Below are positions 33,063 to 54,541 of a stretch of DNA of 64,000 nt, one piece after another. Each line of letters begins with the position of its first letter. Position 1 is the stretch's first letter. Origin of the DNA: Luteolibacter rhizosphaerae (GTDB taxonomy: Bacteria; Verrucomicrobiota; Verrucomicrobiia; Verrucomicrobiales; Akkermansiaceae); NCBI RefSeq assembly GCF_025950095.1, contig NZ_JAPDDR010000005.1, forward strand, positions 62,001-126,000, given 5' to 3'. The notes under the pieces were generated by a model. The model made no database searches. It saw nothing but the letters and a program-made list of their open reading frames with translations, and had not been told where the DNA came from. Both the position numbers and the translations under genes were made by a program.

Positions 33063-33093
33063 ACCGCGGGGGTTCTCCGCAGTTACAAGAATC

Positions 33094-33099
33094 GTTATC
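33094..33099 (-). promoter_or_regulatory. Candidate -10 box of the repeat-protein gene
   Basis: GATAAC on the minus strand, 35 bp (centre to centre) downstream of the palindrome at 33124-33139 and about 68 bp before the start codon. There is no good -35 hexamer, as expected for an activated promoter. Read by eye only. Confidence 0.35.
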
Positions 33100-33123
33100 C
33101 ATGACGGACGAGAAAGCGTCGAT

Positions 33124-33139
33124 TACCCCAAGGGGGGTA
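33124..33139. promoter_or_regulatory. TACCCC/GGGGTA palindrome, copy 1
   Basis: TACCCC (33124-33129), spacer AAGG, GGGGTA (33134-33139), a perfect 6-4-6 inverted repeat. It sits in the 129-bp gap between the response-regulator stop and the repeat-protein start. The form resembles sites of NarL/LuxR-type regulators (TACYYMT-type half sites). Binding by the adjacent regulator is proposed. Confidence 0.5.
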
Positions 33140-33155
33140 TGACTCCCGCGTGGGG

Positions 33156-33824
33156 CTAGATAGGGAAGCGCGGCTCCTCCTTGGAGTCGCGGAACTTCAT
33201 GGCGGCCTCCGTGCGAGAGCGGACATGGAGCTTCTCGTAGACGTGCTTGAGGTGCACGCGGACGGTCTCCACGGAGATATTGAGACGGTCCGCGATCTCC
33301 TTGTTGGCGAGGCCTTCGCAGAGCAGTTCGAGGATCTCGGTCTCGCGCTTCGAGAGCTTGAGGTCATCGCTGGATTGCTCGGGCTTCGCCGGTTGGTGGA
33401 AGGCCTCGACGACGCGGCGCGCGATCTCGGCACTCATCGGAGCACCGCCGGAACGGACATCGCGGATGGCATCTCGCACATCGGAAGGAGTAGAGCGTTT
33501 GAGGAGATAGCCGGAGGCACCGGCCTTCAGGGCGGCGAAGATCTTGTCGTGATCGCGATAGACCGTGACCATGATGACCTGGATGTCCGGGAGATGCTGC
33601 TTCACGCGGGCGGTGGCCTCGATACCGGACATGCCGGGAAGATTGATGTCCATGAGCACCACGTGCGGGCGGAAGGCATCGATCTTCTTCAAGGCATCCT
33701 CGGCCGTGGTCCAGACTCCGACGCAGCGGCAGTCGGGCGCGGATTCGACGATCTTGCGGAGGCTCGAGCCAAGCGCGGCGTTGTCTTCCACGATGGCTAC
33801 ATCGGTGGCGGGTTCCTTGGGCAT
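33156..33824 (-). CDS. NarL/LuxR-type response regulator of the pectin locus
   Basis: A 222-residue regulator. The receiver domain has acidic residues in IVEDN, phospho-acceptor Asp 59 in VVLMDINLPGMSG, and a lysine in YLLKRSTPSD. The C-terminal LuxR-type helix-turn-helix is LSKRETEILELLCEGLANKE followed by IADRLNISVETVRVHLKHVY. It lies 11 bp behind the propeller histidine kinase gene, making an obvious cognate pair. It is probably an activator of the surrounding polysaccharide genes and of its own operon, since the operon containing it is preceded by the same palindrome as its neighbours. Target sites are inferred. Confidence 0.92.
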   Translation of the reverse strand: MPKEPATDVAIVEDNAALGSSLRKIVESAPDCRCVGVWTTAEDALKKIDAFRPHVVLMDINLPGMSGIEATARVKQHLPDIQVIMVTVYRDHDKIFAALKAGASGYLLKRSTPSDVRDAIRDVRSGGAPMSAEIARRVVEAFHQPAKPEQSSDDLKLSKRETEILELLCEGLANKEIADRLNISVETVRVHLKHVYEKLHVRSRTEAAMKFRDSKEEPRFPI

Positions 33825-33835
33825 GGTGAGTAAGA

Positions 33836-36655
33836 CTAGGATTCGCCGCCGGGTCTATCAAGCAGCGGGACGTTGAGGATGACCGTGGTGCCGCGGCCCT
33901 TGGCGGTTTCGATGTGGCAGGTGCCACCGGCTTCGGCCATGCGGCGTTCAAGATTGCCGAGGCCATCGCCCCCGCGGGCGTAGTCGAGGTGGAAGCCCTT
34001 GCCATTGTCCTCGATATGGATCCCCAGGGTGTCGTTCTCCAAGACGATCTTGAGCTTCACCTCGGTGGAGGCGGAGTGCTTCACGACATTGTTGAGCGCT
34101 TCGCGTGCGGCGAGGAAAATGCTGTGGCGTTCGGTCGTAGCGAGGGGACGATCCGGGATCTCGCGCATGACCTCGCTGCGGAGCGGGATGCGGGCGATAT
34201 CGAGGAACTCGCGGGCGAAGGCGGCGATGTACTCGACCAGCGAGCGCAGGGTGTCCTCACGCGGATTCACGGCCCAGACGATCTCGTCGAGAGCGCCGAC
34301 GACACCTTTCGCTTTCGATGAGAGTTGGTCGAGCGGCGGGTGGAAAGGGCTGCCGGTGGCGTCCTCCGCGGCGAGCGCGGCGAGGATGGAGATCTCGGTG
34401 AGGCTCGCGCCGAGGTCATCGTGAAGATCGCGCGCGATGCGGGAGCGCTCGGCCTCGCGGGCATTGCGGATCCTGAGCTTCTCGATGCGGCGCTTCATCT
34501 TGCGGCGTGCCAAGAGCCATCCGGCAGCGGCGGCGACGAGGAGGACGCAGAGGCTGGCCGAGATGAGGAACCATGCCGTTTCCCAAAAATGGGGACGAAT
34601 CACGATCTTCACGCTGGCGATGCGGTCGCTGCGAATGCCGTCTCCATTCACGGCCATGACCTCGAAGGTGTAGCGGCCCGGAGGCACGGCTTCGAAGGCG
34701 GCGATGCGCTGGGTGCCAAGCTCGCGCCAGACATCGTCGAGGCCGCTCATGCGGGCGCGGTAGGTGATCTTCTCAGGGGCGCTGTAGCCGAGACCGACGA
34801 AGCGGAACTCCACCCGGGAGCGGCCGGGGCCGGCTTCGATGTTGCCGCCGGTTGCATCGTGCTGCATGCCATTCACGCGGATGGATCGCAGGTAGACGGG
34901 CGGGGCGACCTTGTTGATCTCGACGAGTTCGGGGCGGACGCGGACGATGCCGTTGCCGGTCGGGAACCAGAGTCGACCGTCGCTGGCCTTCCATCCGGCG
35001 GGCTGATAGCCGCCGATGCATTCGCGCGATGGCAGGCCATCGGAACGATCGAGCCTGAGCCAATGGAGCGGGGCTTCGGGGTCTTTGATTCGCTGGAGGA
35101 GTTCCTTCCGGTTGGCGCGGAGGATGCCACCGAGCGAGCCGAACCAGAACTGCCCGCGGCCGTCGTCGAGCAGGCAGGTGAGACGTTCGTCAGGAAGGCC
35201 CTCGCCGGAGCCGAAGGAGTGCCAGCGCTTGCCATTCCAGAGGAAGAGTCCGCTGCCGAGGGTGCTGGCCCAGACCTCGTTCTCCGCCGCGAGGTGGATG
35301 CCGGAGATCCAGCGGTGCTGGAGATCGCTGCTTGCCCCGAGCGGCCTGAAGCGTCCCGGGCTGCCGAGGAGGACTTGTCCATCCGCAGTCCCAAAGACGA
35401 TGCCACTCTTGCCGCCATTCCCGATTACGGTGATGTCGGGCTCGGGAATGTTCGCGGTGGCAGCGTGCTGTTGGACCTGATCGTCCTTGAGCGAGGCCAA
35501 GCCTTGGGAACCGCCGAACCAGAGGGTGCCCGATGAATCCTGATGGATGGTCCTGACCTTCGATGGGACTTGGGTCTTGGCGAAGGGGGTCTTGAACACG
35601 CCGTCCTTGCCAGTGAAGACGCTGCCTTCGCGGGCTGCGGCCCACAGGGTGCGATCGCGGTCTTCAAACAAGGTGCCGATGGCGCGGTGGTAGCCGCCGG
35701 GCACGAGATCGATCTGCTCGGATCCTTGCGGAGTCCAGCGCGTGATGCCGCCGCTGCGGTTCGCGAGCCACCACTCACCGGAGCTGGCCTGCATCACCGC
35801 GAAGATCGCGTTGTCCGAGAGTCCGCCGGTCTTGTCCAGGACTTCGACCCGGCTAGTCTTCACACGGATCAGGCCATTGATCGGAGAAGCGACCCAGACA
35901 TTTCCTTCCCGGTCCTCTAACAGTTCATTCGCCGCTACGGGTGAACCTGCGCCCGGAAGCAACACCGGCAGAACGGTGCCATCGGAGGCTTTCAGTTCCA
36001 GCCCGCCCGAACTTGCTTCCGCCCAAGTGCCTCCGTCGCGGTCCTCCAGGCGTGGTGTGGCGGCGGGTTCCTCGCGCCTGCCTTTCCGTGCTTGGTCCGC
36101 GAAGTCCCGGTGAAAGCTTTCAATGATGGCGTCGGCAGGCTGGGCAACTTCGATGGCGATGCCGTTCTCGATGCGGTGGAATTCCTCGCCGCGCTTGATG
36201 TGGATCTCGCCTTGCTTCGTCTCCAGCAGTTGCGTGACGAGAGGGGGGCGGGGTTTGATGGCATCCGGCAAGACGCGCTCGAACTTCCCATCACGGATCA
36301 GGAAGAGCCCGCCCTGGAAGGTGGCCACCCATACGTCGTTCTTCCCGCTGGTGTAGAGGCGCCAGAAGGCGAAGCGGCTGCGGCGCTGCCGGCCATCGAG
36401 TTCGATCGGCTCGAACTCGATGCCGTCGAAGCGCGCGACTCCCTCCGCCGTCGCGACCCAGAGGTAGCCATCGCGGGACTGGATCACGGAACGGACGACG
36501 TTTCCCGGCAGGCCGTCCTCGGACTGCCACTGTCTCACCAGCAAGCGGCTCTCACCCTGCGCGATGGAGACGCGCAGCAAGAGAAGCAAGACGAGGAGAT
36601 AGAGACGCACGGGAACAGCTTGCACCGGGGCTACGGAACTTGTCGAGGAAAGCAC
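33836..36655 (-). CDS. Sensor histidine kinase with periplasmic beta-propeller (Reg_prop/Y_Y_Y/HisKA_3)
   Basis: The 939-residue kinase has an N-terminal hydrophobic export signal (VRLYLLVLLLLLRVSIAQ), then two-component-regulator propeller repeats (for example WQSEDGLPGNVVRSVIQSRD, DGYLWVATAEGVARFDG, LTCLLDDGRGQFWFGSLGGI) over about residues 40-600. A Y_Y_Y-type domain follows (YRARMSGLDDVWRELGTQ), then a TM helix near 690-710, a HisKA_3 dimerisation helix with SRIARDLHDDLGASLTEISI (phospho-acceptor His), and an ATPase domain (ALNNVVKHS, DNGKGFHLDYARGGDGLGNL). Such propellers sense oligosaccharides in Bacteroidetes hybrid systems; here the regulator is a separate LuxR-type protein. The ligand is presumably a pectin or RG-I fragment. 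The start is GTG 36655; GTG 36610 would place the signal peptide at the N-terminus and is equally likely. Confidence 0.92.
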   Translation of the reverse strand: MLSSTSSVAPVQAVPVRLYLLVLLLLLRVSIAQGESRLLVRQWQSEDGLPGNVVRSVIQSRDGYLWVATAEGVARFDGIEFEPIELDGRQRRSRFAFWRLYTSGKNDVWVATFQGGLFLIRDGKFERVLPDAIKPRPPLVTQLLETKQGEIHIKRGEEFHRIENGIAIEVAQPADAIIESFHRDFADQARKGRREEPAATPRLEDRDGGTWAEASSGGLELKASDGTVLPVLLPGAGSPVAANELLEDREGNVWVASPINGLIRVKTSRVEVLDKTGGLSDNAIFAVMQASSGEWWLANRSGGITRWTPQGSEQIDLVPGGYHRAIGTLFEDRDRTLWAAAREGSVFTGKDGVFKTPFAKTQVPSKVRTIHQDSSGTLWFGGSQGLASLKDDQVQQHAATANIPEPDITVIGNGGKSGIVFGTADGQVLLGSPGRFRPLGASSDLQHRWISGIHLAAENEVWASTLGSGLFLWNGKRWHSFGSGEGLPDERLTCLLDDGRGQFWFGSLGGILRANRKELLQRIKDPEAPLHWLRLDRSDGLPSRECIGGYQPAGWKASDGRLWFPTGNGIVRVRPELVEINKVAPPVYLRSIRVNGMQHDATGGNIEAGPGRSRVEFRFVGLGYSAPEKITYRARMSGLDDVWRELGTQRIAAFEAVPPGRYTFEVMAVNGDGIRSDRIASVKIVIRPHFWETAWFLISASLCVLLVAAAAGWLLARRKMKRRIEKLRIRNAREAERSRIARDLHDDLGASLTEISILAALAAEDATGSPFHPPLDQLSSKAKGVVGALDEIVWAVNPREDTLRSLVEYIAAFAREFLDIARIPLRSEVMREIPDRPLATTERHSIFLAAREALNNVVKHSASTEVKLKIVLENDTLGIHIEDNGKGFHLDYARGGDGLGNLERRMAEAGGTCHIETAKGRGTTVILNVPLLDRPGGES

Positions 36656-36664
36656 TCGAAGCTG

Positions 36665-39600
36665 CTAAGGAGTAAACTCGACGCGGTAGAAGGCGCGGCT
36701 GAAGGAGGCAGGATCCGTGAAGCTGGCGGTGCTGCCGATGCCACCCGTGACCGTGCCGATGGGCTCCCATGTGCCGCTTCCGAGGGCGAGGCGACGTTTC
36801 ACGGTGAAGACCACACCGGGTGCGCTGGGCCAGACGAGGGTGCGGCCGCTCACGCTGGTCCGGAAGGCGCTGCCTCCGTGGGCGGGATCGAGGCCGAGAC
36901 GCCATTCGACGAGGTTCGAGCTGCCATCGAGATCGGTATCATCGGTTGATGCTTGAGCGAGATTGCCGAAAGAGGAGAGTTCCCAAGAATCCGGCAGACC
37001 GTCTTCGTCACTGTCATCGATCACGAGGACCACTTGGCCGGGCATAAGGGTCGAGAGATGGGCGGTGGTGCCGGAGGGAATGCCAATGAGGGATGCGCTG
37101 CCGCTCAAGGTGCCACCGTAGCTGATGAGGGGGTAGCGACCGAATCCGGTGCCGGGTGCGAGGGCGATCTGGATGGTGCCGCCGAGAGCGAGATCGCCGG
37201 AGACGGCGAGCAGATCGGTGGAGCGTAGCTTGGTGAGGGAACCGGCACCGAGAAAGGCGCTGCCGTGAACTGCGAGAGTGCCGGAGGGACCGCTCGCGAA
37301 GCCGCGACCTTCGAGGGTGCCGTTGACGTTGAGATCCGCGGAGAGTGTTCCGTAGGCTGTCATGGATGCACCGGAGTCGAGCGAGACAACATCGGTGGCG
37401 AGGCTTCCGCCGCTGATCTTCAGGAAGGCCGCCGATGCGACATTCACGGCGCTATTGCTGGTGACACTGCCGGTGATTTCCAAGGTGCCTTGCTCCACCG
37501 TGGTGCCGCCTGCCCAGACACCGGTGCCGCTGAGGGTCCAGGTGCCGGAGCCTTGCTTGACGATATTGGTGAGTGTGGAGCCAGGGATCTGCTCGGCGAT
37601 GGTTCCGGCGAAGGTCGTGGAGCCACCTTTCGCTCCGATCAGATAGGTAAGTGCACGTCCGCCGGTGACGCCGCCCAAGAGGGTGGAACCTGAAGCACCC
37701 GAGAGTTGGCCGATGCGGATGGAAGTGCCCGCGCCTTGATTGAGGATGCCGGTGTGCTTCATCGCGACGCTTGCTCCCAGATACAGCGAGGCATTCGGGA
37801 AGCCATCGGGAGTGTAGTTCTCCGCCATACGGAATTCACTGCCGGTCGCGGAACTGACATTGAGCTGGCCGGTGAATGCGGACCAATCTCCATAGAAGTC
37901 GCCGCGAACGTAGCTGACGACGAGATTGAGTGTGCCGGCCCCGCTGAGGGTGCCGCTCAGCGAGCCGCGCTGCGGGCTGTGCAGGGTGCCGCTCTGGCCC
38001 GCGGGAACGATGAGTGCATTCGGGAGATCGCCTGCGCCGGGCAGGCCGGTGCCGGAATCGTGCATCCTGAGGGTGCCGCCAAGGAAGGTCACCGCGCCAG
38101 TGCCGAGGCCCCAGCGGTTCGCGGCTTCGTTGCCGAGCTGGATGGTGCTGCCGATAGCGATGGAGGTGCCGCCGCTGTAGCTATGGCGGGTGTGGTAGGT
38201 GAGTGTAGCAGTGGCCGCCGTGGCGGTGGTGGCGGACATGGTGAGGGTATTGCCCGAGATGCCGGTGATGGTGGTGCCGTAGGGGAAACCACCGCCCATG
38301 ACGACCATGCCCGGTGCGAGGCTTGCGGCATCCGTTACCGTTACCTGATTGCTTCCCGAGGTGGTGGTGCTGCTAAGGCTCAAGATGTCAGGAAGGAGCG
38401 TGAGCAAACCGTTGCCGGTTTTCACGAGCGAGGTGCTGCCGGCGATCATGCCGATGCCGTCGAAGGTGTAGGCGCGAGTGCTGTTAGAGATGGTGATCGC
38501 GCGGGGCTGGAGGGTGCCGTTGAGCATGACGGTGCCGACCGGGGAGCTGTCGTCGAAGATGACGGCATCGAGGTTGAAGAAGGTGGGCGTGGGGCCGCTG
38601 GTGAAGTTGGCGGTGGTATCGAGATCCCAAAGTCCACCACCCGCGGTGCCGCTCCAGACGAGCGAGGCCGGTGGGGTGCCGCTGACCACGAGATTCACGA
38701 AGGCGGGACTGCCGCCGCTGGATTGGCGCTGGACGGCGAAGGTCTGGCGGGAGCCGGGAGGGAGGCCGACGAGATTGAGGGCGGGTGCCGGATTCGCGGC
38801 CATGGTCGCTGCGCCGTCGATGAGGGGGTAGGTGCCATTGCCGAGCACGCCCTCGGTCGCGCTGACGTGGAGATTCACGGTGGCACCGGAGAGCGTGAGG
38901 GTGCCGCTGCTCACGTTGATCCGGTCGTTGGCTCCGGCGGGGGAGCCCGAGAGATCATAGCGGATGTTGCTGGTGCCGTTCAGGGTGAGGCCTGCGCCCG
39001 TACTGAGAGTGCCTGCGTGTCCTTGGGAAGGGCCGGGGTCGAGGGTGCTTCCGGAGGCGGCGGTGACGAGTCCGCCGATGCTGCCGCTGCCACCGAGGAT
39101 TGCGCCATTAGCGACGGTGGTGGCGGTATTGCCCAAGGTGCCATTCACCCGGAGCGTGCCTGCATTCACGCCGGTGATACCGCTGTAGGTGCTGGAGCCG
39201 GTGAGGGTCCAGGTGCCGCTGCCGACCTTGTTCAGGTTGGTTGCTCCGCCGCCATTGACGATGGCACCGGCGAAGGTGGCGGTGGTGTTGAGGCCGCCGA
39301 TGTTGTAAGTGCTGACGACGGTGCCGGTCTGGGTGCCGCTCAGGGTGGTGCCACTGCTGGTGGAGGTGAGTTCGCCGATCTCGAAGGGTGTGGTCGCGCT
39401 ACCATTGCGGTTCATCAGCTGCGAGGTGCCGCTGCCGAGATCGACGGCAACGGCGGCGCTGCCGAAGTTCAGGTTCGAGTTGCCATTGAGACGGATGCGG
39501 GGATTGCCGCTGCCTGCCACGATCCGCCCGGTGAAGCCGGACCAAGTGCCGCCGATGGTCCAGAGTTGGTTGGCGGTTGCATGGAGCGTGAGTGGCTGTG

Positions 39601-41746
39601 TGCCGGTCCAGCTGCCGCCGATCGCGTGCTGCGAGCCAATCGTGATGGTGGCGGGCTGGTTGAACTCGAGGAGGTTGCCGAGAGTACTGTTAGAGGGAGG
39701 GGCGAGGGCGAGTGAGCCGCCGTTCAGGGAGATCTTCGCGGTGCCTGCGGCAGCGGCGGTATTCAGGGCGAGGGTGCCTTGCTCGATGGAGACGCTGTTG
39801 AAGCTGTTGGTGCCGGTGTTATTGATGGTGAGATTGCCGCTGCCGCGCTTGGTGAGTGCATTGGTGGTGCTGATGGCACCGGCGCCGTTGAAACTATAGT
39901 TCGCGGAGGAGTCGACCTCGACGGTGGTGGCGAGGACTGCGGCGGGGAGATTGATCGCGGGCGATGCGGAGCCGGTGTCGCCGAAGCGGACGCGATCTCC
40001 GCTGGTGAAGGCGACGGGGGTGCCGTCGTTCAGCCAGTTGTTCGAAGTCGTGTCCCAATCGCCGGCTGTGCCGCGCCAATCGAGATCGGCAGGGGCGCTG
40101 TTGTTGGTGACGCAGATGAGGAACTGCTGGGTCCAAGTGCTGCCCTCCGTATCGGTCACGGTGAAGAGGAAGCCACCGCGTCCGGCACTGGCTTGGGTGT
40201 TAAAGGTTACGATGCGGTTGCCCGGGCCGCTTTGGGTGGCACTACCGCCGCCAATGCCGGTGAGGGTGAAGGCTGGAGCATTGGTGAAGCCGGCGGTGTA
40301 GCGCGAGAGATCGACGATGAGGGAGCCGCTCTTTACGACGAATGCGTGGGGCACCGCCTTGAAGTGGAGGTATTCCTCTAGCCGCGTGTATCCGCTCGCG
40401 CTGCCTGCCGGAAAGTAGGTGGTGCCGCTGACGGTGGTGTTGTGGTCCTGGGTCGCGGGATTCCAGCCGAGCGCGGTCTCGTAGGCATCCGGCATGGCGT
40501 CGCGGTCGGTGTCGATCGGAGCGGTGGCGGAAGCGAGGGTTCCGAAACCGCTGTTGCTTACACCGGCGAGATCGCTTTCACGGGTGATATGATTCGCGGT
40601 CTGGTTCGCGAGGTTCTGGAGGAGGCGCGTGTCCACCTCATCGCGGAGCGGGCCGGGGTGTGAGGCATCCAGGCGGAGTGGTCCGGCATTCGAGAGGATC
40701 TTCTTGTAGGCGAGCAGCGCGGGATCCGTGGTGACGGTGAGCGAGCCGGTATTCGCGTAAGGCGAAGCGAGCTGGATGTAGTTGCCGGTCGGGTTGGTTG
40801 CGGCGTTGTAGGCCGATCCACCGACGATGCTGTAGCCGCGGTCGGTGCCATTGAGGAGGCCGTCGCCATCGCGGTCGTGGAGGTTGTTCGCGACGTGGAC
40901 CGAGAAGTTCGGATAGCCGTTGCGATCGAGGCTGGCCTTCTCCAACGGCGTATTCCTGATATTCCCCGGCGGGCAGATGAAGTAGTTCCCGACGACGTTC
41001 GACTTCCATCCGGCGGGAGTCTGGGAGTCACCCATGATGAAGCCGATGTCCCAGTCGAAGGTGACATTGTTCACCCACTCTAACAGCCCGGCGGGTCGTG
41101 CCTTCGGGTTGCGGGTGTGATTGTGGGCCCAGAGGGTGTGATGGCAGGTGGCGTGGTTCTGGTCCCAGAGTCCGCCGCAGGAGTGGCTCTCCAGGCCCCA
41201 TGCATTCAGCGCCCACTGCATGGTGAGATTCTCCGGCGGGCTGCCGAAGGACGAGATGTTCTCGTCCGTGCTGAAGGCCATCGAGATATGGTCGAGGATC
41301 GCGTTCTGGCAGCCGCTATCGAGGTCGATGCAATCGCCGCCGGAGCCGTTCTTGCCGTGGCGGAAGCGCAGATGGCGGATCACGATGTCATCCGCGGAGA
41401 TCCGGAAGGTGCCGTTTCTCAGCCCGATGCCATCGCCCGGCGCGGTTTGGCCGGCGATGGTGATCTTGTTCTGCGTGATCCGCAGGTTCGATCCCGGCAC
41501 GTGAATGTATCCGCTGACCGCGAAGACGATGGTACGACCGCCGGAGGGCGCGGTGGCGATGCCCTCGGCAAGCGATCCGGCGCCGCTGCTGTTCAGGTTC
41601 GTGACGATGTAGACATCCCCGGTTCCGGTTCCCGAGGTGGTGCCGCGCCCGCCCTTGGCATAGGCCCCGTAGCCTTCGGCACCGGGGAATGCGGGGATTT
41701 GGGCAGCCGCAGTGAGGGCAAGGAGAAGAAAGAGGAGAGACTTCAC
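36665..41746 (-). CDS. PL1-type pectate lyase fused to beta-strand repeats
   Basis: The 1693-residue exported protein has a signal peptide MKSLLFLLLALTAAAQ. Residues about 17-440 are a pectate-lyase beta-helix of the type IPAFPGAEGYGAYAKGGRG, with VYIVTNLNSSGAGSL, IVFAVSGYIHV, TIAGQTAPGDGIGL, DIVIRHLRFRHG and DCIDLDSGCQNAILDHISM. A cadherin-like segment follows (about 465-560), then about 1000 residues of autotransporter-associated beta-strand repeats (for example GSGTWTLTGSSTYSG, GSGTWTLSGTGVWAGGTT). The C-terminus has DDSDEDGLPDSWEL and DTDLDGSSNLVEW calcium-type motifs and a terminal beta domain. It should cleave polygalacturonan while held on the cell surface. It overlaps the acetylesterase gene upstream by 4 bp (ATGA) and leads into the kinase gene with a 9-bp gap. 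Confidence 0.88.
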   Translation of the reverse strand: MKSLLFLLLALTAAAQIPAFPGAEGYGAYAKGGRGTTSGTGTGDVYIVTNLNSSGAGSLAEGIATAPSGGRTIVFAVSGYIHVPGSNLRITQNKITIAGQTAPGDGIGLRNGTFRISADDIVIRHLRFRHGKNGSGGDCIDLDSGCQNAILDHISMAFSTDENISSFGSPPENLTMQWALNAWGLESHSCGGLWDQNHATCHHTLWAHNHTRNPKARPAGLLEWVNNVTFDWDIGFIMGDSQTPAGWKSNVVGNYFICPPGNIRNTPLEKASLDRNGYPNFSVHVANNLHDRDGDGLLNGTDRGYSIVGGSAYNAATNPTGNYIQLASPYANTGSLTVTTDPALLAYKKILSNAGPLRLDASHPGPLRDEVDTRLLQNLANQTANHITRESDLAGVSNSGFGTLASATAPIDTDRDAMPDAYETALGWNPATQDHNTTVSGTTYFPAGSASGYTRLEEYLHFKAVPHAFVVKSGSLIVDLSRYTAGFTNAPAFTLTGIGGGSATQSGPGNRIVTFNTQASAGRGGFLFTVTDTEGSTWTQQFLICVTNNSAPADLDWRGTAGDWDTTSNNWLNDGTPVAFTSGDRVRFGDTGSASPAINLPAAVLATTVEVDSSANYSFNGAGAISTTNALTKRGSGNLTINNTGTNSFNSVSIEQGTLALNTAAAAGTAKISLNGGSLALAPPSNSTLGNLLEFNQPATITIGSQHAIGGSWTGTQPLTLHATANQLWTIGGTWSGFTGRIVAGSGNPRIRLNGNSNLNFGSAAVAVDLGSGTSQLMNRNGSATTPFEIGELTSTSSGTTLSGTQTGTVVSTYNIGGLNTTATFAGAIVNGGGATNLNKVGSGTWTLTGSSTYSGITGVNAGTLRVNGTLGNTATTVANGAILGGSGSIGGLVTAASGSTLDPGPSQGHAGTLSTGAGLTLNGTSNIRYDLSGSPAGANDRINVSSGTLTLSGATVNLHVSATEGVLGNGTYPLIDGAATMAANPAPALNLVGLPPGSRQTFAVQRQSSGGSPAFVNLVVSGTPPASLVWSGTAGGGLWDLDTTANFTSGPTPTFFNLDAVIFDDSSPVGTVMLNGTLQPRAITISNSTRAYTFDGIGMIAGSTSLVKTGNGLLTLLPDILSLSSTTTSGSNQVTVTDAASLAPGMVVMGGGFPYGTTITGISGNTLTMSATTATAATATLTYHTRHSYSGGTSIAIGSTIQLGNEAANRWGLGTGAVTFLGGTLRMHDSGTGLPGAGDLPNALIVPAGQSGTLHSPQRGSLSGTLSGAGTLNLVVSYVRGDFYGDWSAFTGQLNVSSATGSEFRMAENYTPDGFPNASLYLGASVAMKHTGILNQGAGTSIRIGQLSGASGSTLLGGVTGGRALTYLIGAKGGSTTFAGTIAEQIPGSTLTNIVKQGSGTWTLSGTGVWAGGTTVEQGTLEITGSVTSNSAVNVASAAFLKISGGSLATDVVSLDSGASMTAYGTLSADLNVNGTLEGRGFASGPSGTLAVHGSAFLGAGSLTKLRSTDLLAVSGDLALGGTIQIALAPGTGFGRYPLISYGGTLSGSASLIGIPSGTTAHLSTLMPGQVVLVIDDSDEDGLPDSWELSSFGNLAQASTDDTDLDGSSNLVEWRLGLDPAHGGSAFRTSVSGRTLVWPSAPGVVFTVKRRLALGSGTWEPIGTVTGGIGSTASFTDPASFSRAFYRVEFTP

Positions 41747-43944: not shown

Positions 43945-43971
43945 GCCCGGTACTATGAATCTGCCGGGCAT
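43943..43971 (-). promoter_or_regulatory. Hairpin over the acetylesterase start codon, enclosing a -10-like box
   Basis: ATGCCCGG (43943-43950) and CCGGGCAT (43964-43971) are perfect 8-bp arms with a 13-nt loop containing, on the minus strand, TTCATAGT. If transcribed from upstream it would hide the start codon. Alternatively the loop holds the -10 element (CATAGT at about 43954-43959), about 33 bp from the palindrome centre, and the hairpin is incidental. Confidence 0.35.
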
Positions 43972-43980
43972 TTTTGTCGC

Positions 43981-43997
43981 TTACCCGCTTGGGGTAA
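43981..43997. promoter_or_regulatory. TACCC/GGGTA palindrome, copy 2
   Basis: TTACCC (43981-43986) and GGGTAA (43992-43997) with a 5-bp spacer, a perfect inverted repeat 37 bp upstream of the acetylesterase start codon. In the alignment used for the other copies it reads TACCCG-CTT-GGGGTA. Confidence 0.5.
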
Positions 43998-44014
43998 AGA
44001 CGACGACCGGCACC

Positions 44015-44911
44015 CTATTTCGCCCCTAGCTCTTTCTTGAAAAAATCGATCGTGCGCTGCCATGCCAGCTTGGCGGCGGCTTCGTCGTAGCGAGGGGTGG
44101 TGTCGTTGTGAAAGCCGTGATTTACGCCGGGGTAAATGAAGGCCTCATACTTCACTCCGGCTTTCTTCAGGGCTTCCTCATAGGCGGGCCATCCGGCATT
44201 CACGCGCTGGTCGTTCTCCGCATACTGGAGAAGGAGGGCTGCTTTGATTTTAGGGACATCATCGGCAGCGGGCTGACCACCGTAGAAAGGGACGGCAGCC
44301 TTGACGATATCAGGGAGACGGACTGCCAAGGTATTCGCCATCCCGCCGCCGAAGCAGAAGCCGACCGCGCCGACCTTGCCATTGCAGAACTCGTGGGCAT
44401 GCAGCCACTTGGTGGCGGCGATGAAGTCCTCCTCCATCTCTTCCTTCTTGCGCTGGGCTTGCAGGGTGCGTCCTTCGTCGTCGTTGCCGGGATAGCCGCC
44501 GAGCGGGGTAAGTGCGTCCGGCGCGAACGCGACGAAGCCGTCCACGGCGAGGCGGCGGGTCACATCCTCGATGTAGGGATTCAGGCCGCGGTTCTCGTGG
44601 ATGACGATCACGCCGGGCAGTTTGCCCTCCGCCTTCGCAGGGCGGGCGAGGTAGCCCTTGATCTTGCCGCCGCCTGCGGGCGAATCGTAGGTTTCGTAGG
44701 AGACCTTGATCCGTTCGTCTTCCTTTGCGACCTGCTCGGCGAGGGCATACTTCGGGCTCAGGGCGGCGAGAAGCCCGGCAGCCGTCACCCCGCCGACAGC
44801 GAAGCGCGAGGCGCGGTCGAGAAAGCCGCGGCGGCCGACCTGGCCGTGCACGTATTCATCGTATAGATCGAGCAGCTCCTGCGGGAAATCTTGTGCGGTT
44901 TTCCGGTCCAT
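44015..44911 (-). CDS. Dienelactone hydrolase family protein, Tat-type export signal
   Basis: The 298-residue alpha/beta hydrolase has a twin-arginine motif [10 protein letters not shown] followed by a hydrophobic stretch ([15 protein letters not shown]), so it is probably exported folded by Tat. The catalytic set is that of dienelactone hydrolases: nucleophile Cys in [10 protein letters not shown], Asp in [11 protein letters not shown] and His in [27 protein letters not shown] is the typical oxyanion region. Classical members open cyclic lactones in aromatic degradation; in this locus an ester of the pectic polysaccharide is a more likely substrate, but that is a guess from position. The start lies 55 bp beyond the rhamnosidase stop on the same strand. 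Confidence 0.87.
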
Positions 44912-44966
44912 CCCGATAGAACCGTGTCGGTGCGGGGAAAGTTGCTGTAGTCCCTGTCATCGCGCC

Positions 44967-47609
44967 CTAGCGAAGGGGGATGAGCTTCACGGGACCGAGT
45001 AGGCCTGAATCCATGGAGGTCCATCCGGCCGCATCGAAGGGCTTGTAGTGGATGTTGACGAAGTTGATCTCGTGGAAGGATTTCCATGAGACCTTCCGGC
45101 GGTCGAGGTCGGCGATGCGGTTCGCCGCGAGGTTCGTCACTTCGATCTCCAGAAGGTTCTTCCCCGGTTTCAGCGCATCGCCTGTCATCAAGCGGTGCGG
45201 GGGAGCCCAGCAGGAGCCGAGCGATGTCCGGTTAAGAGTTACGCGCGCAGTGTGGGCGATCGCGCCAAGATCGAGCAGGGCGGGGGACTCACCATTCCAA
45301 TCGAACTCCAAGCGGTAACGGGCGGTTCCGGAGAAGTTCCGGTAAGCATCGCCCTCGCGCTTGGCCCATGAGGAGAGTTCCTTGCTGTGATAGGCGGCTG
45401 GGAGCTCGGGGCCGCCTTCGATGAACTCGATCTGCCAGTCGCCAGCGAGAGTGATCGCCTCGCCCTGAACTTCCCGGTCGAGCCACGAGGGGCCTTCGGC
45501 TTGCTTGGCGCGGTAGGTTCGCAGGATTCGTGACTCTCCCGCCGCGAGGACGAGTCTGATCCCGCCTTCCGTGGAGGTTATTCCGCTGTTCCCGCGCATC
45601 GGGTCGAACATGGTGGCTGACTGGCAAGGGGTCGCCAGAGTGAGCTTGGTGTCGATGTCCGCGCCGGATGAGTTCACGATGAAGTAGCTCCAACCGTCCT
45701 CATGCTTGCGTCGCACGAAGCGGAGTTTCTTCCCGGCCATCGGCTCGACTTTCACTGCGGCGCCATCCAGAAGGCGGGCGAGGTCGCCACGCGAGATGAA
45801 GCTTGCGCCTACCGCTGAATCGGTGTTGTTCGCATAAGGGGCGAAGAGTGCGGTGAGCTCGCGGCTGCCCTCACCCTTGCCGTGGAAGCCGGGAGACTCC
45901 TGCGGCGGATCACCGAGGATGCCGATGCGGGCGCCCTTTCCTGCGAGGTCGAGTAGATGCCTGGCGGTCGCCGCACTCATGAAGCGCGTTTCCGGAATCA
46001 GCAGGGTCTTGTAGCTGCCTGTGCCCATGCGGATGCTGCCGCCTTCTACCTTGGCTCCGGAGAGGAGACGATCGGAGACGAAGTCACACGGGATGCCCTG
46101 CTGCCACATGGCCATGGCCGCACGGTAGAAGGACGAGGGGTGGAGCCACTTGTCCTGATTGTGCACGGTGAAGAGCGGCAGGCCCGCGGCGCCATCGTGC
46201 CACAGATCGTGCATGGGGAAGTAGAGCAGCACCTCGGCGTCCGGCGTGCCGGATTGCAGCATTGCCTGGCAGCGCGCGATGTAAGAGGTGAAGGCGGGCA
46301 TCTCCCTCCACAAACCGCCATTCGGGCCCATGTGGGTGGAGGCGTAGAAGAGCCAGCCGGGCCAGCCGGCATCCTGAGGCGAGTAGGGAATGCCGTGGAA
46401 GAAGATGTGGTTCACCCCACCCAGCCACACGAAGTCGGCGGCTTCCTTAAGCTTTGCGGGAGTTACCCGGAAGTGCTCGTCGAGCCAAGTGAAGGTCTCG
46501 GCGGAGACGAGATTCTTGCCACTCAGATGCGCCGCGGAAGAGGCAAATTGAAGCATCGGGATCTGAGCTTCATCGACGTGGCGAAAAATCTCCGTTTCCG
46601 GGATGTCGGCCACGGCGTAGTGATCTAACAGATTGCCCGGAGAGCCGTGTGCTTGATTGCGGGTAAGGCTGCCCCGGTCCTTCGCCCAGTCGTGCCACTT
46701 CGCCAGATAACCACGATGCAGGTCGCTCATGGTTTCGCGATAGTCGGCGCGGACCCGTGCTATCGTATCGGGATCTCCCTCGCCTTGGAGTGCGGGTAGC
46801 TGCGAGCGCAGGTCGTATCCCTGGAGTTCTTGGAAGCGCGCGAGGAGATCATCGGTCCAGGCCGCGCCGTAGTATTCGAAGGAGTCGTGAAAATGCGCGC
46901 GTGGCTCCGGAATATCGGGACGATCCAGAGCGGTGTCGAAGGCCTTCAGATAGGCTTCCATCGAACTTGTGGAGAAGGGATCGAGGACCAATCCGGCTCC
47001 TCCCGGTGCGGAGCGCTTCACCTTCTGGATGCCGTGCTTCGAGATCCAGCCATGGATCGACCACTTGCCCGCGGGAGGTGTCCAGAGCAGGCGGTCGCCG
47101 GTGATCTTGTCGGAGAGGTCGAGCGGTTCGCCGGACTCCGGCCATGCCTTCAACACTTCCACCCGGCCTTTCGGGAGGGGGAGTTCCACCTGCTTCCCAT
47201 CCGTGACTGTGATCTTCACGTCGATGAGGGAAGCCGAGGCAAGGTCTTCGCCCACCCAAGGTCCGCCGAAGGGCCAGCCGGTTCCGGTGGTGAGATCGAG
47301 GCCGAGGTCCAGTCGATCGGCTTCCGATGCGGCGTGGGCATAGGCGCGGGTCCATGCTTCGGAGAGGAAGGGAAGGTCGCGTTTCTCGTAGCCCTTGGCG
47401 CCATAGATCGGGCAGATCTCCACGCCTCCGAGCCCAGCCTTCGAGAAGTCTTCGAGCTGCTTGCTCAAGCCGGGGGCATCCACGCCGCTGCCAAGCCACC
47501 ACCAGCGGGTCCAGGGTTTCGCCTCCCTCGTCACGGCTGGCCATGCGGTGTCATCGGCGCTTGCCAAGGGGGCGACGAGGAGAGCGAGAAGCAAAGTGGG
47601 CTTTATCAT
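44967..47609 (-). CDS. GH106-type alpha-L-rhamnosidase
   Basis: An 880-residue exported enzyme (signal peptide MIKPTLLLALLVAPLASA). The start of the mature protein, KPWTRWWWLGSGVDAPGLS, and the segments GLGGVEICPIYGAKGYE, DLTTGTGWPFGGPWVG, HDSFEYYGAAWTD and NLVSAETFTWLDEHF match the large GH106-type glycosyl hydrolases, which release terminal L-rhamnose. The C-terminal region (GDWQIEFIEGGPELP, ATARYRLEFDW-like strands) is a beta-sandwich carbohydrate-binding part. It is tightly packed behind the PL1 gene (6 bp) and PL4 gene. Its product, L-rhamnose, is the substrate of the pathway encoded at 4.7-9.2 kb. Confidence 0.87.
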   Translation of the reverse strand: MIKPTLLLALLVAPLASADDTAWPAVTREAKPWTRWWWLGSGVDAPGLSKQLEDFSKAGLGGVEICPIYGAKGYEKRDLPFLSEAWTRAYAHAASEADRLDLGLDLTTGTGWPFGGPWVGEDLASASLIDVKITVTDGKQVELPLPKGRVEVLKAWPESGEPLDLSDKITGDRLLWTPPAGKWSIHGWISKHGIQKVKRSAPGGAGLVLDPFSTSSMEAYLKAFDTALDRPDIPEPRAHFHDSFEYYGAAWTDDLLARFQELQGYDLRSQLPALQGEGDPDTIARVRADYRETMSDLHRGYLAKWHDWAKDRGSLTRNQAHGSPGNLLDHYAVADIPETEIFRHVDEAQIPMLQFASSAAHLSGKNLVSAETFTWLDEHFRVTPAKLKEAADFVWLGGVNHIFFHGIPYSPQDAGWPGWLFYASTHMGPNGGLWREMPAFTSYIARCQAMLQSGTPDAEVLLYFPMHDLWHDGAAGLPLFTVHNQDKWLHPSSFYRAAMAMWQQGIPCDFVSDRLLSGAKVEGGSIRMGTGSYKTLLIPETRFMSAATARHLLDLAGKGARIGILGDPPQESPGFHGKGEGSRELTALFAPYANNTDSAVGASFISRGDLARLLDGAAVKVEPMAGKKLRFVRRKHEDGWSYFIVNSSGADIDTKLTLATPCQSATMFDPMRGNSGITSTEGGIRLVLAAGESRILRTYRAKQAEGPSWLDREVQGEAITLAGDWQIEFIEGGPELPAAYHSKELSSWAKREGDAYRNFSGTARYRLEFDWNGESPALLDLGAIAHTARVTLNRTSLGSCWAPPHRLMTGDALKPGKNLLEIEVTNLAANRIADLDRRKVSWKSFHEINFVNIHYKPFDAAGWTSMDSGLLGPVKLIPLR

Positions 47610-47615
47610 GGCGAA

Positions 47616-48698
47616 CTACTTCGGACCGGCATCCCGCTGGATCGATACTTCCACTTCGGCGGCGGGTTTGGCTTGGTAAGGGTAGGGGAGCTTCAGCGGA
47701 TCATTCCATTCGAATCCCCCGACCGAATTGAAGCGGAAGCCGGTGTTATCATCCGCCATCGGGCCGGGCTTCTTGCCGAGGCTCAGGGAGTCGACGACAC
47801 GGGTGATGCCGCCGCGGTTGTTTTCCTTCGAGTCGTCCGCGTGGGAGTTGCTCACCGCTACCTTGCAATCCCGGTAGACGCAGCCCTCAACCAAAGTGGC
47901 GGCACCGCAGACCGAGATGGTGGCGGTGCCGACGTGTTCGACGAGGTTGTTGAAGAAATGGAGATTCCCGTGTCTGAGCCGGGGTGCGCGTGAAGATAGC
48001 TCCTTGAACCAACAATCGTGAATGGTGACATTCAAGTGGCCCTTGTCCTGAGCCCTGGCGTTCTCCGATGAGGAGTTCCCGATCAGCATGCCCTTCTTCT
48101 GTGTCTGCCCGCCGCCGGATAAAATACAGTGCGAGATGGTCACCAAGTCCGAGCCGTGGATGATGTCGAGTTGCCCATCGTAGACCTTGCCGAAATCGCA
48201 GTGGTCCACCCACACGCGTCGCGAGCCCTTTTTCCCGGCGGAGCTGATGCGGATGTAGTCCCAGCCCATTTCATCGTATTCGCCGGATGGATCTTCTTCC
48301 CAAAGGTCGCGGAAGCGGAGGTTGCGGATGATGAGGTTCTCCACGCCCTTCAGCTCGATGGTCCCGCCGCGCAAGGTGGCCCCGCCGGGAGGACCTTCCA
48401 AGGTGGTGTGCGAACGCGGGCGAATAACGCCCACCTTCGTCAGGACCTTGCCCGACTTCTCGTTCGCCAGCTCACCGAGATCGATATCTCCGGACAGCCG
48501 GATCACCCGTGGTGTGGAGTCTCTCCGCTCTTTCGGTTGATCCAAGCGCTCGACAGCGCTCCGTAGCTCCTCCGCGGTCTTCACCAGCACGGGCTTTCGA
48601 TCTCCACCTCCGTCCGTGCCGCCATCCAGGGATGCGAATCCGAGCGGACCCGCGTGGAGCAGCGTGATCATCAGAAAGAAGGGAACGAGAATGCGCAC
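47616..48698 (-). CDS. Secreted PL1 pectate lyase
   Basis: A 360-residue protein with a signal peptide (MRILVPFFLMITLLHAGPL) and the full PL1 beta-helix core: LIIRNLRFRDLWEED, RRVWVDHCDFGKVYDGQLD, IIHGSDLVTISHCILSG, and the C-terminal catalytic block VTIHDCWFKELSSRAPRLRHG with the conserved RxPRxRxG arginines, then NLHFFNNLVEH. It cleaves polygalacturonan by calcium-dependent beta-elimination. It is a compact single-domain lyase, in contrast to the giant fused lyase at 36.7-41.7 kb. It sits between PL4 and GH106 with gaps of 12 and 6 bp, so the three should be one transcript. Confidence 0.93.
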   Translation of the reverse strand: MRILVPFFLMITLLHAGPLGFASLDGGTDGGGDRKPVLVKTAEELRSAVERLDQPKERRDSTPRVIRLSGDIDLGELANEKSGKVLTKVGVIRPRSHTTLEGPPGGATLRGGTIELKGVENLIIRNLRFRDLWEEDPSGEYDEMGWDYIRISSAGKKGSRRVWVDHCDFGKVYDGQLDIIHGSDLVTISHCILSGGGQTQKKGMLIGNSSSENARAQDKGHLNVTIHDCWFKELSSRAPRLRHGNLHFFNNLVEHVGTATISVCGAATLVEGCVYRDCKVAVSNSHADDSKENNRGGITRVVDSLSLGKKPGPMADDNTGFRFNSVGGFEWNDPLKLPYPYQAKPAAEVEVSIQRDAGPK

Positions 48699-48710
48699 CG
48701 GGATAATCTG

Positions 48711-50597
48711 TTAGAGGGTTCCGCCCGCGCGTGTCGAGTCGATCTGCTCCAGACGCAGGTAATCGTAGAGAAGTCCCTGATGCCATACGCGGCCTTCGAG
48801 CCGGAGTTCGAGGACATTGCCGGTCTTTTTCAGGACCTCGGCCGGGATCCTGAAGCTCAGTTCCGTGAGCAGGCCGCGGTGACCGTCCCGGTGCATTACT
48901 CCATTCTCATGCAAGCGGCCGCTGTCGCCGATCGCTTGGCCGTTGGCGGTGATGACGAGCTTGTCATTCTCACGATGGCCGCAGAGCGCGATCCGCAAGC
49001 GATGGTCGACCGCGTCCTTGAGATCGAAGCGGACTCTCCATGTCGAGGCTCCGAGCACCTTGCCTTTGTCATCGAGCTCAAGAGGCTGGCAGAGGTTCCA
49101 ATCCTTTTTCCAATCGCTCTTGCCTATGGTGAAATCGACGCCTCGCGGGAACTCTTTCCGATACTGGAGATGATGGCCCCAGAGCCAATAGCGGTCACCG
49201 TTGCGGAACTCCGCCGCACTGCGGTCCGGGATGCCGATCTCCCACGCCACGGGGCCCGATCTCTCCACCTGCCATGCGAGATCACCGAGTCTCATGGCCT
49301 TGCCGGGCTCGACCCGCACTTGCTCCTTGCTGAACTCGCCGAGTATTCCATCGGCAAAAGCGTGAAGCGTGTAGGTCCCGGGCCGGACCGAGGCGATCCG
49401 GAAGCTGCCATCTGCTGCGGCCCTAGCCCAATACTGGTAATGTTTGCCATTGCGTTGCCAGCTTACCTTCTCCCTGCCGGAACGTGATCTTACTTCGTAG
49501 TCGGGAGCCGTAAGCCCCACCCACATTGTGCCCGGCTTGTTGGCGGCGAGCGGGTCTTTCAGGGTCAGCTTGCCCGTTACCGCGACGCGTTCCTTCGCCG
49601 CATAGAGCGGGCTATCCACCCAGGGATAGGGCCATTGCTTGATCTCGGTGACAGCAGTTCGCATCGCGTCGCGCCACATGCCGAGGGCGTTGTCGCCTTG
49701 GTTGGTGTGCAGCAGGAAGGGGCCGACGAGCATCGACCAATCCTCGCCCTTCGCGACACTCAGCGAAGTTCCGCCGTAATGGCTGCCGTGCCACATGTTC
49801 AGCAGCACGGGGCGACCGCCGGGATTCACGTCGAGATGTCCCGTGAGTTCCGGCTTGGTCGGTCCTCCGGCGATGTATTCGAGCGAGGGGTTTACCATCC
49901 ACAGCCCGATCTTCCTTTCCGAGGACGACCAGCCGTAGGCCGGAGAATCGGAGAAGAGGGCGGAGTAGCCATACTTGTGCTCCACCTCTCCCTTGTGAAT
50001 GCCGCTGGTGAGGAGGCGGGCTTCTTTCAGATTCGCCTCCGTGCCGCGGTCCCAGTCCTGACCCGTTGGCATCTGGCGCGAGCGGGGGGCATCCACCGTG
50101 AACCAATCGAAGACCTGCGGATCCGGCTTCACCACGTAACGTGCCTCCCCGATGCCGAAGCCGGGTAGCTCCGCGGGATGCTCGAAGATGCCGTAGATGT
50201 AGACGCCTTCGGCAGACTCGGTGAGGGCGTAGCGGAAGGAAACATGCGCGGGCAGGGTGCCCGGGGCTCCATCGTAGAGGCAATCGATGGCGACTTCTCC
50301 CACCGCTCCGCCTGTCAGGGTGATCCTGCCGCCGCCGGATCCCGGGGAGCCTTGGATCCGGCCCTTGTCGGAGCCGCCGCTGAAGGACCAGTAGCCCGTC
50401 CCGCCACGGATCAGCTCCAGATCACCGCGTTTGAGCGAGACCAAGGTCGCCTTCGCTTTGTCGACCCGGGCCGAGATCTTTCCGTTTCGGAGGAGGAAGG
50501 TCTTTCCTTCGTCGCGCACTTCGACCGCCGCCCGGGCGAGAGGGGTGAGAGCGAGACTCAGAGAGGCAAGGAATCGAAAGTAAAACGCTGGTTTCAA
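48711..50597 (-). CDS. PL4-type rhamnogalacturonan lyase
   Basis: A 628-residue exported enzyme (signal peptide MKPAFYFRFLASLSLALTPL). The N-terminal catalytic super-sandwich has FLLRNGKISARVDKAKATLV, YWSFSGGSDKGRI and the segment YVVKPDPQVFDWFTVDAPRS. A fibronectin-III/CNA-like domain follows (SVRPGTYTLHAFADGILGEF), then a C-terminal jelly-roll carbohydrate-binding domain (WGHHLQYRKEFPRGVDFTIG, LRIALCGHRENDKLVITANG). These three parts in this order are the PL4 layout. It splits the RG-I backbone between rhamnose and galacturonate, leaving rhamnose ends for GH106. First gene of the PL4-PL1-GH106 unit, with palindrome copy 3 about 64 bp upstream. Confidence 0.9.
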   Translation of the reverse strand: MKPAFYFRFLASLSLALTPLARAAVEVRDEGKTFLLRNGKISARVDKAKATLVSLKRGDLELIRGGTGYWSFSGGSDKGRIQGSPGSGGGRITLTGGAVGEVAIDCLYDGAPGTLPAHVSFRYALTESAEGVYIYGIFEHPAELPGFGIGEARYVVKPDPQVFDWFTVDAPRSRQMPTGQDWDRGTEANLKEARLLTSGIHKGEVEHKYGYSALFSDSPAYGWSSSERKIGLWMVNPSLEYIAGGPTKPELTGHLDVNPGGRPVLLNMWHGSHYGGTSLSVAKGEDWSMLVGPFLLHTNQGDNALGMWRDAMRTAVTEIKQWPYPWVDSPLYAAKERVAVTGKLTLKDPLAANKPGTMWVGLTAPDYEVRSRSGREKVSWQRNGKHYQYWARAAADGSFRIASVRPGTYTLHAFADGILGEFSKEQVRVEPGKAMRLGDLAWQVERSGPVAWEIGIPDRSAAEFRNGDRYWLWGHHLQYRKEFPRGVDFTIGKSDWKKDWNLCQPLELDDKGKVLGASTWRVRFDLKDAVDHRLRIALCGHRENDKLVITANGQAIGDSGRLHENGVMHRDGHRGLLTELSFRIPAEVLKKTGNVLELRLEGRVWHQGLLYDYLRLEQIDSTRAGGTL

Positions 50598-50653
50598 TAG
50601 AATCGGAAGCGGGGTGCCGGTCGAAAACTACGTTGGAACCAAGCCTGTAGCCA

Positions 50654-50668
50654 CTCCCCGTTGGGGTT
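50654..50668. promoter_or_regulatory. CCCC-GTT-GGGG palindrome, copy 3
   Basis: CTCCCC-GTT-GGGGTT, 6-3-6 spacing as in copy 2 but with degenerate outer bases. The centre (50661) is 64 bp upstream of the PL4 start codon, and a weak -10-like TAGTTT (minus, 50625-50630) lies about 33 bp downstream. It also lies 86 bp upstream of the divergent topoisomerase gene, so its target is less certain. Confidence 0.4.
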
Positions 50669-50753
50669 AGGGCCCTCCACCCGGCCGGTCCGGGCGGCCT
50701 GTCCGCATCCGGTCTTGCGCCTACCCCCCGGACCCGCCATTGATCCGCCCGAC

Positions 50754-52773: not shown

Positions 52774-52798
52774 TGCCTCATGATCTTGATCTGAGGCA
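52774..52798 (+). other. Hairpin covering the kinase ribosome-binding region
   Basis: TGCCTCA (52774-52780) and TGAGGCA (52792-52798) pair perfectly around an 11-nt loop. The second arm includes the GAGG of the ribosome binding site and the first base of the start codon of the kinase at 52798. It could limit translation or end the topoisomerase transcript weakly (no T-run). Confidence 0.45.
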
Positions 52799-53883: not shown

Positions 53884-54541
53884 GTCCCCCAACCGCACCC
53901 GAATCGTCCTTGTCGATGACCATCCGATGGTCCGCGAGCGCCTTGCCGAAGTCATCAACCGCGAGGACGACATGGTCGTCTGTGGCGAGGCGGAAGACCG
54001 AGGCAGCGCCCTCGACGTGATCGGGCGGGAGCTGCCGGACCTCGCGATCGTGGATTTGACGCTGAAGCGTTCCAATGGCCTCGACCTGATCAAGGACCTG
54101 CACGTGATGCACCCGAAGCTGCTGCTGCTGGTGCTCTCGATGCAGGACGAAACCCTTTATGCGGAGCGGGTGATCCGGGCCGGTGCGCATGGCTACATCA
54201 CCAAGCAGGAGGCCACCCGGAAGATCCTGAACGCCATCCGCGAGGTTCTGGGCGGGAAGGTTTTCCTGAGCCCGGAGATTTCCGCGGACATCCTTTCCCG
54301 GATGCTCGGCAAGTCCAAGGGCGCGATTCGTTCGCTTGAGGTTCTTTCCGACCGCGAGTTGCAGGTGTTCGATCTGGTGGGGCAGGGATTCGGGACCCGT
54401 CAGATCGCAGAGCAGCTCGGCCTGGACGTGAAAACGGTGGAAACCTACCGCTCCCGGATCAAGGAGAAGCTGGAGATCCGGGATGCCTCCGAACTCCTGC
54501 GGAAGGCGATCGCGTGGAAGCACGATCATCCCAACGAGTAA
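53876..54541 (+). CDS. NarL/LuxR-type response regulator
   Basis: From ATG 53876, inside the end of the kinase gene, the product is 221 residues. The receiver has VLVDDHPMVRERL and phospho-acceptor Asp 60 (LAIVDLTLKRSNGLD), then GAHGYITKQEATRKIL. The LuxR-type helix-turn-helix is LSDRELQVFDLVGQGFGTRQ followed by IAEQLGLDVKTVETYRSRIK. It is partner of the preceding kinase. Its targets may include the following ligase/acyltransferase genes; an 8-bp inverted repeat begins 10 bp after its stop codon. That regulatory link is inferred. Confidence 0.93.
   Translation: MSESPNRTRIVLVDDHPMVRERLAEVINREDDMVVCGEAEDRGSALDVIGRELPDLAIVDLTLKRSNGLDLIKDLHVMHPKLLLLVLSMQDETLYAERVIRAGAHGYITKQEATRKILNAIREVLGGKVFLSPEISADILSRMLGKSKGAIRSLEVLSDRELQVFDLVGQGFGTRQIAEQLGLDVKTVETYRSRIKEKLEIRDASELLRKAIAWKHDHPNE

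Follow-up and report, generated by a model that had tools for sequence, protein, structure and literature searches.

A NarL-type palindrome abutting promoters of a pectin locus in Luteolibacter rhizosphaerae as the candidate operator of the response regulator encoded there

The window analyzed here is a stretch of 64,000 nucleotides from the 6.23 Mb genome of Luteolibacter rhizosphaerae (contig 5, 62001-126000). It contains a locus of pectin and rhamnogalacturonan I (RG-I) genes, and the intergenic regions of this locus hold a palindrome, TACCC(C/G)...GGGGTA, that is considered below as the operator of a NarL-type response regulator encoded in the same locus. Three units follow one another on the minus strand: a lyase and rhamnosidase operon (50597 to 44015), the acetylesterase operon (43944 to 33156) and the gene of a 1791-residue protein (33026 to 27651). 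The lyase and rhamnosidase operon begins with a PL4 rhamnogalacturonan lyase (48711-50597), continues with a PL1-type pectate lyase containing a Pectate_lyase_4 domain (47616-48698) and a GH106 alpha-L-rhamnosidase (44967-47609), and ends with a dienelactone-hydrolase (DLH) family protein (44015-44911). The acetylesterase operon encodes, with intergene gaps of -4, 9 and 11 bp, a two-domain GDSL/SASA acetylesterase (41743-43944), a 1693-residue protein (36665-41746), a sensor kinase (33836-36655) and the regulator (33156-33824). The 1693-residue protein combines PATR repeats with an N-terminal pectate-lyase-like part, which matches the PelZ model only under the cut-off of that model. The kinase has a Reg_prop propeller together with Y_Y_Y, HisKA_3 (PF07730) and HATPase_c (PF02518) domains, and its adjacency to the regulator gene suggests that the two proteins are partners. 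The 1791-residue product (27651-33026) is a beta-strand (PATR) repeat protein with a signal-peptide-like N-terminus.

The acetylesterase start was set at 43944, and not at the upstream ATG at 43971, because the product begins there with a signal-peptide-like sequence and aligns with its orthologues. This start codon lies inside an arm of an inverted repeat, ATGCCCGG-N13-CCGGGCAT (43943-43971, minus strand), that was not seen by eye in other acetylesterase upstream sequences and may be due to chance. A second pair of a HisKA_3 kinase and a NarL/LuxR-type regulator, the latter with another recognition helix, lies at 52798-54541, downstream of parC.

The regulator has a receiver domain (PF00072, E 2.1e-25) and a GerE/LuxR domain (PF00196, E 3.5e-21), and its closest solved structure is that of E. 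coli NarL, in agreement with the initial annotation, which had placed a NarL/LuxR-type regulator in the second unit. It scores 149.6 bits with the NCBIfam NarL model, below the cut-off of 250. Close relatives occur in Haloferula sp. BvORR071, Luteolibacter soli and Luteolibacter marinus. Eighteen genomes of the genus were compared, and the ten with a regulator 85-100% identical to that of the window are referred to as group I. The recognition helix, ETVRVHLKHVYEKL, is invariant in all ten and aligns with the NarL helix STVKVHVKHMLKKM. Aligned to K188, V189 and K192, which we take to be the base-contacting residues of NarL (the literature search found no paper naming them), are R, V and K, with the positions counted by hand.

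Inverted repeats had initially been described in three intergenic regions; two of the three are strong. Site 1, upstream of the gene for the 1791-residue protein, is a 16-bp NarL-type 7-2-7 dyad, TACCCC-N4-GGGGTA, that reads TACCCCCCTTGGGGTA on the minus strand (33124-33139) and TACCCCAAGGGGGGTA on the plus strand. Site 2, upstream of the acetylesterase operon, reads TTACCCCAAGCGGGTA (43982-43997, minus strand), with the palindrome TACCCGCTTGGGGTA at 43982-43996. Palindromes of the form TACCCN{3,7}GGGTA occur in the window at these two sites only, where shuffled sequences lead one to expect 0.02. With a matrix of 15 sites, all from genomes other than that of the window, site 1 had the highest score (22.0) and site 2 the next highest (16.1) among 63,985 window positions. 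Site 3, between parC and the PL4 gene (TAACCCCAACGGGGAG, 50654-50669, minus strand), is weak and occupied the fourth distinct place (11.9). Besides sites 1 and 2, only a match within the kinase gene at 34580 stood ahead of it, which bears out the initial statement that the window has no good copy elsewhere.

Both strong sites adjoin promoter-like elements of the same geometry. On the minus strand, the site 1 promoter is TACCCCCCTTGGGGTA-A-TCGACG-N17-GATAAC and the site 2 promoter is TTACCCCAAGCGGGTA-A-GCGACA-N17-CATAGT. The -35-like hexamers (33117-33122 and 43975-43980) are 1 bp from the respective palindromes and are separated by 17-bp spacers from the -10-like hexamers (33094-33099 and 43952-43957); GATAAC is identical in 7 aligned genomes. 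A -10-like hexamer at 33-35 bp from the palindrome centre had been noted in the initial annotation, and the distance is 35 bp, centre to centre, at both sites; the -35-like hexamer immediately downstream of the palindrome and its 17-bp spacer had been missed. On the assumption that the transcript begins some 7 bases past the -10, the centre of the putative operator would lie near -44.5 at sites 1 and 2. The approximately 12 bases that follow the -10 of site 1 (33082-33093, minus strand; GATTCTTGTAA...) have 88% identity over 7 genomes, a value above that of the spacer, and may represent the start region, a second site or a signal in the leader.

Absence of conservation upstream of orthologous genes had been named at the outset as a result that would speak against an operator; the motif is kept there. 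The site 1 element is present in 9 of the 10 group-I genomes (G000, G001, G004, G006, G007, G009, G010, G011 and G014), in G011 assigned by its position beside the regulator, since the contig stops short of the downstream gene. In G002, the only group-I genome without the element, a full-length match to the 1791-residue protein was not found. Searched without mismatches, TACCCCNNNNGGGGTANNCGAC has 6 matches in the 18 genomes, counting that of the window, and every one of them corresponds to site 1. The pattern GGGGTAATCGACG-N16-GGATAACGAT, which joins half of the operator to the -35 and the -10, matched once each in 7 of the 18, G004 and G010 among them, with up to 3 mismatches; its reversed control gave 0 matches in all 18. 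Identity across 7 sequences at this gene was 0.26 in the flank, 0.85 in the operator, 0.96 in the -35, 0.53 in the spacer and 1.0 in the -10. Within the operator, the half beside the -35 varied less than the outer half. The gene of the 1791-residue type lies about 175 kb from the regulator in G004 and 244 kb from it in G010, and the promoter element is retained in both.

The possibility was considered that the palindrome acts in RNA, as a hairpin or terminator ending the preceding gene. Site 1 lies 16 bp past the stop codon of the regulator and can fold with -8.1 kcal/mol. However, no T run follows the palindrome, covariation between the arms was not above that of shuffles, with 21 of 96 cells unpaired, and the element travels with the downstream promoter where that promoter has moved away from the regulator. 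A role as a hairpin or terminator is highly improbable.

The acetylesterase promoter element is present in 8 group-I genomes and is distant from the regulator in four of them (G001, G002, G004 and G009). Identity across the 8 sequences was 0.26 in the flank, 0.66 in the operator, 0.88 in the -35, 0.39 in the spacer and 0.70 in the -10. A copy at a contig edge in G007 is probably the same promoter, judged solely by its likeness to that of G014. A close acetylesterase orthologue was not found in G011, and the orthologues of G003, G017 and G005 are preceded by weaker versions that are recognizable by eye. At the PL4 gene, the block TAACCCCATCGGGGGGCT is kept in all 4 genomes that have the parC-PL4 junction (judged by eye in G004 and G006), the window copy having few changes; its identity is 0.89, compared with 0.30 in the upstream flank. 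A fifth PL4 orthologue, in G005, sits elsewhere. In an internal check, a 16-mer matrix derived from the 9 copies of site 1 alone recognized 6 of the 8 acetylesterase sites and 4 of the 4 PL4 sites at a positional p of <=2.1e-4. Boxes that are conserved at a fixed distance, with a freer spacer between them, as in these alignments, characterize a promoter that has an operator beside it.

The specificity of the element was evaluated with a model of 48 positions, R1, derived from 16 sites. The site 1 copy of G014 (G014_P) was omitted from this model, its -10 being shifted by one base, and the G005 sites were omitted from the training matrix. In the genus, 150 candidates were scored per genome; in 195 family genomes, taken from a larger group, 31 were scored per genome. 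At E<=0.01, the family scan gave 18 matches in 11 of the 195 genomes, all of which have an orthologue of the regulator. Such an orthologue (E<=1e-95) is present in 20 of the 195, and among the 31 candidates scored per genome there were zero matches in the 175 genomes where it was not found. In the window genome, sites 1 and 2 alone reached this threshold. Matches at E 0.003 to 1 (37 among the matches listed) were not accepted; those inspected by eye were from G013, G016, G008, G007 and G000 (contig C1).

Two outlying matches are recorded here for themselves. In G005, a genome with a more distant regulator, a lone operator-like promoter (C16:42861; E 0.0014, model positions 2-34 only) precedes a GH43 gene and may mark an extra member of the regulon; it was not counted as confirmed. 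In G013, a weak operator-like site (C217:9626) and a paralogous NarL-type regulator are about 1.6 kb apart, and the product of the gene that follows it begins, by eye, like a minor pilus-assembly protein.

Regulator loci that had not contributed to the matrix provided a further comparison. There are 23 loci in all, and the 13 held out were scored in 400-bp regions 3' of the regulator and around the kinase start; these regions were chosen after top matches had been seen there in three loci, and the grouping by helix was also post hoc. The best score of the entire stretch fell inside a 400-bp region in 4 of the 13 (G029, G048, G132 and G003), and in the first three of these the second-best score fell in the other region; G005 and G017a had ranks 2 and 3. 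The summed score was 189.3, compared with 89.7 (sd 15.7) over 20,000 circular shifts, none of which scored as high, a count that is not a strict probability because the loci are related. Five column-permuted matrices gave no enrichment at the held-out loci. The nine loci whose regulators have a VRVHL[KR] helix scored 160.6, compared with 63.6 expected from the shifts, while the other four, among which G017c (VRVHVKH) was placed, gave no signal (28.7 vs. 26.2). The sites cluster beside the regulator and kinase genes, and the signal comes from VRVHL[KR] regulators.

The palindrome could also be a true operator that serves a different protein, for example a paralogue of the NarL type, while the regulator beside it has other targets. 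At E<=1e-25, the window genome encodes eight more proteins that match the regulator, and the parC-side NarL/LuxR-type regulator is encoded 3 kb from site 3. However, in this comparison of NarL-like regulators none of the eight has V at the position equivalent to NarL 189, where W, W, T, F, T, M, E or S replaces it, and V is likewise missing there from the 16 paralogue loci fetched from the genus. Moreover, the sites track loci of orthologous regulators with VRVHL[KR] helices, and the 175 family genomes without a detected orthologue are empty of model matches. Another reader of the sites is thus very unlikely. The parC-side regulator in particular is disfavored as the binder by its differing helix, KTVETYRSRIKEKL.

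Several observations weigh against assigning the palindrome to the adjacent regulator as its operator. Relaxed forms of the motif show no enrichment genome-wide (9 vs. 17 in the control; 72/80 vs. 183/164) or over the 18 genomes of the genus (33 vs. 43 control matches). Site 3 has neither the GGTA end nor a convincing -10, and the general 48-position model misses it at E<=1. The outer half site is weakened in G004 (TAACAC) and G010 (TAACTC), G002 and G006 have weak sites before their acetylesterase genes (p 9e-4 and 1.8e-3), and G016, which does not have the regulator, shows by eye a faint look-alike before its acetylesterase gene. Longer site 1 matrices, to which the -35 and -10 were added, recognize the acetylesterase and PL4 sites less well. 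At the held-out loci G171, G091, G072b, G039 and G017b there is no clear site, and G072a and G017c have only marginal ones; G171, G091 and G072a belong to the nine with a VRVHL[KR] helix. Finally, 10 of the 11 family genomes with R1 matches had supplied training sites, so that the new information of that scan consists of the 175 empty genomes and the one new G005 site.

The looser patterns do not outnumber their controls, which points to a small regulon. Genome-wide abundance was rejected as support, since the relaxed patterns fell below the reversed control. In the initial annotation, a motif placed at random or in unrelated genes had been named as a result that would refute the proposal. Near-perfect copies with the promoter box are not scattered, whereas bare looser palindromes do occur at chance level. 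Seven other palindromes of the window genome were inspected by eye, and none has a correctly placed CGAC box together with this promoter. One (C1:712313) has CGAC but falls inside a 995-residue reading frame, and another (C3:171359) is intergenic, before a gene that is LysR-like by eye, without the box. The lack of enrichment would suit a resemblance due to chance or to residual common ancestry without function. However, flank identity is at the chance level (0.26-0.30) where the sites have 0.66-0.89, the promoters of three unrelated genes have the motif in common, and the held-out loci are enriched, so that such a resemblance can hardly be credited. Taken together, the sequence comparisons support reading the palindrome as an operator, which is very probably that of the NarL-type regulator encoded at 33156-33824.

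In the mechanism proposed, the propeller kinase (33836-36655) would respond to a pectin or RG-I fragment by phosphorylating the regulator. The latter would then bind, as a dimer, to the 7-2-7 site, which abuts a weak -35 and is centred at about -44.5, and would recruit RNA polymerase to the acetylesterase/lyase/kinase/regulator operon and to the gene of the 1791-residue protein. The PL4-PL1-GH106-DLH operon would probably be activated too, via the poorer site 3. The regulator might instead bind and repress, blocking the -35 region until its phosphorylation changes, and a protein bound against the -35 could indeed exclude the polymerase. Induction is the usual mode of control for catabolic loci of this kind, which weighs against repression, as do the poor hexamers, which resemble those of activator-dependent promoters. 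NarL itself is described as a repressor of frdA (PMC4549865); however, the site considered here is upstream of the promoter, not over it, near -44.5, a position at which NarL acts as an activator (PMC7419079). Repression is therefore unlikely.

Under the activation mechanism the circuit would amplify itself, because the operon that site 2 precedes ends with the regulator gene, and self-activation is plausible in the window genome. In the three congeners G001, G002 and G009, whose acetylesterase gene lies on a different contig, an operator is found before the kinase instead; one genome of another genus also has an operator before its kinase. None was seen there in G004, where the acetylesterase is also unlinked. 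A TCGACA promoter-like element stands at the annotated 5' end of the kinase gene in 9 of the 10 group-I genomes, including that of the window and excluding G004. Its conservation makes a basal supply of kinase and regulator that is independent of site 2 likely, so that self-activation may be only partial. Some 30 bases past this element there is a GTG (36610-36655, minus strand), which hints that translation begins later than annotated and that the transcript may be leaderless.

A literature search over titles and the beginnings of abstracts found, among the matches listed, no report of a response-regulator operator in Luteolibacter-like Verrucomicrobiota or of a regulator of their pectin genes, and we know of no NarL/FixJ member that is tied to pectin use in Verrucomicrobiota. 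The finding offers a precise candidate operator, a promoter geometry, a sensor and a list of targets, all open to testing. Furthermore, the regulator orthologues form a natural series, with differing recognition helices and with or without the site, in which the evolution of NarL-family specificity can be studied.

Comparison with E. coli NarL shows the same architecture of receiver and LuxR/GerE domains and similar helices, VRVHLKH here and VKVHVKH in NarL. TACYYMT-type half sites had been suggested initially, and NarL binds such heptamers (PMC4886647). The palindrome, written as TACCCCC-CT-TGGGGTA, matches the NarL 7-2-7 consensus in the first six positions of each heptamer and has C/A, not T, at the seventh. 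The NarL operators of ogt and yeaR are likewise inverted 7-2-7 pairs, and the six-base arms of site 1 are those of TACCCCTAAAGGGGTA, the engineered site used in NarL gel shifts (PMC4549865). At ogt, NarL has one site centred at -44.5, which abuts the -35 and from which it activates, and another centred at -77.5 (PMC7419079). The former has the placement proposed here, and the latter is reminiscent of the operators of G001, G002, G009 and G048 that lie 37-39 bp upstream of the kinase -35. Unlike in the NarL system, the sensor is a Reg_prop/Y_Y_Y propeller kinase and not NarX or NarQ, and the targets are pectin genes and not those of nitrate respiration.

The sensor instead resembles that of the hybrid two-component systems (HTCS) in the polysaccharide utilization loci of Bacteroidota, in which Reg_prop and Y_Y_Y domains also adjoin glycan-degrading genes. 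In HTCS a single polypeptide combines the sensor, the kinase and an AraC output, whereas here the kinase and the regulator are separate, the kinase is of the HisKA_3 type and the output is LuxR/GerE. NarL/FixJ-family activators bind near -41 to -45, and the dyad beside the -35 is placed in the same way. The chances are about even that a single NarL code, in which V at the 189-equivalent position reads TACCCC half sites in a 7-2-7 array abutting the -35, is common to the E. coli nitrate regulator and to this Verrucomicrobiota pectin regulator wired to an HTCS-like sensor. In such a code, V to G would go with loss of the site, as at three VRGHLKN orthologue loci that are without it, and moved targets would keep their operator, as those far from the regulator gene keep the element, resulting in a very small self-amplifying regulon. 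If this is true, a small regulon could be followed in evolution. Judged by its predicted components, the system is of the NarL/FixJ type, neither NarL itself nor an HTCS.

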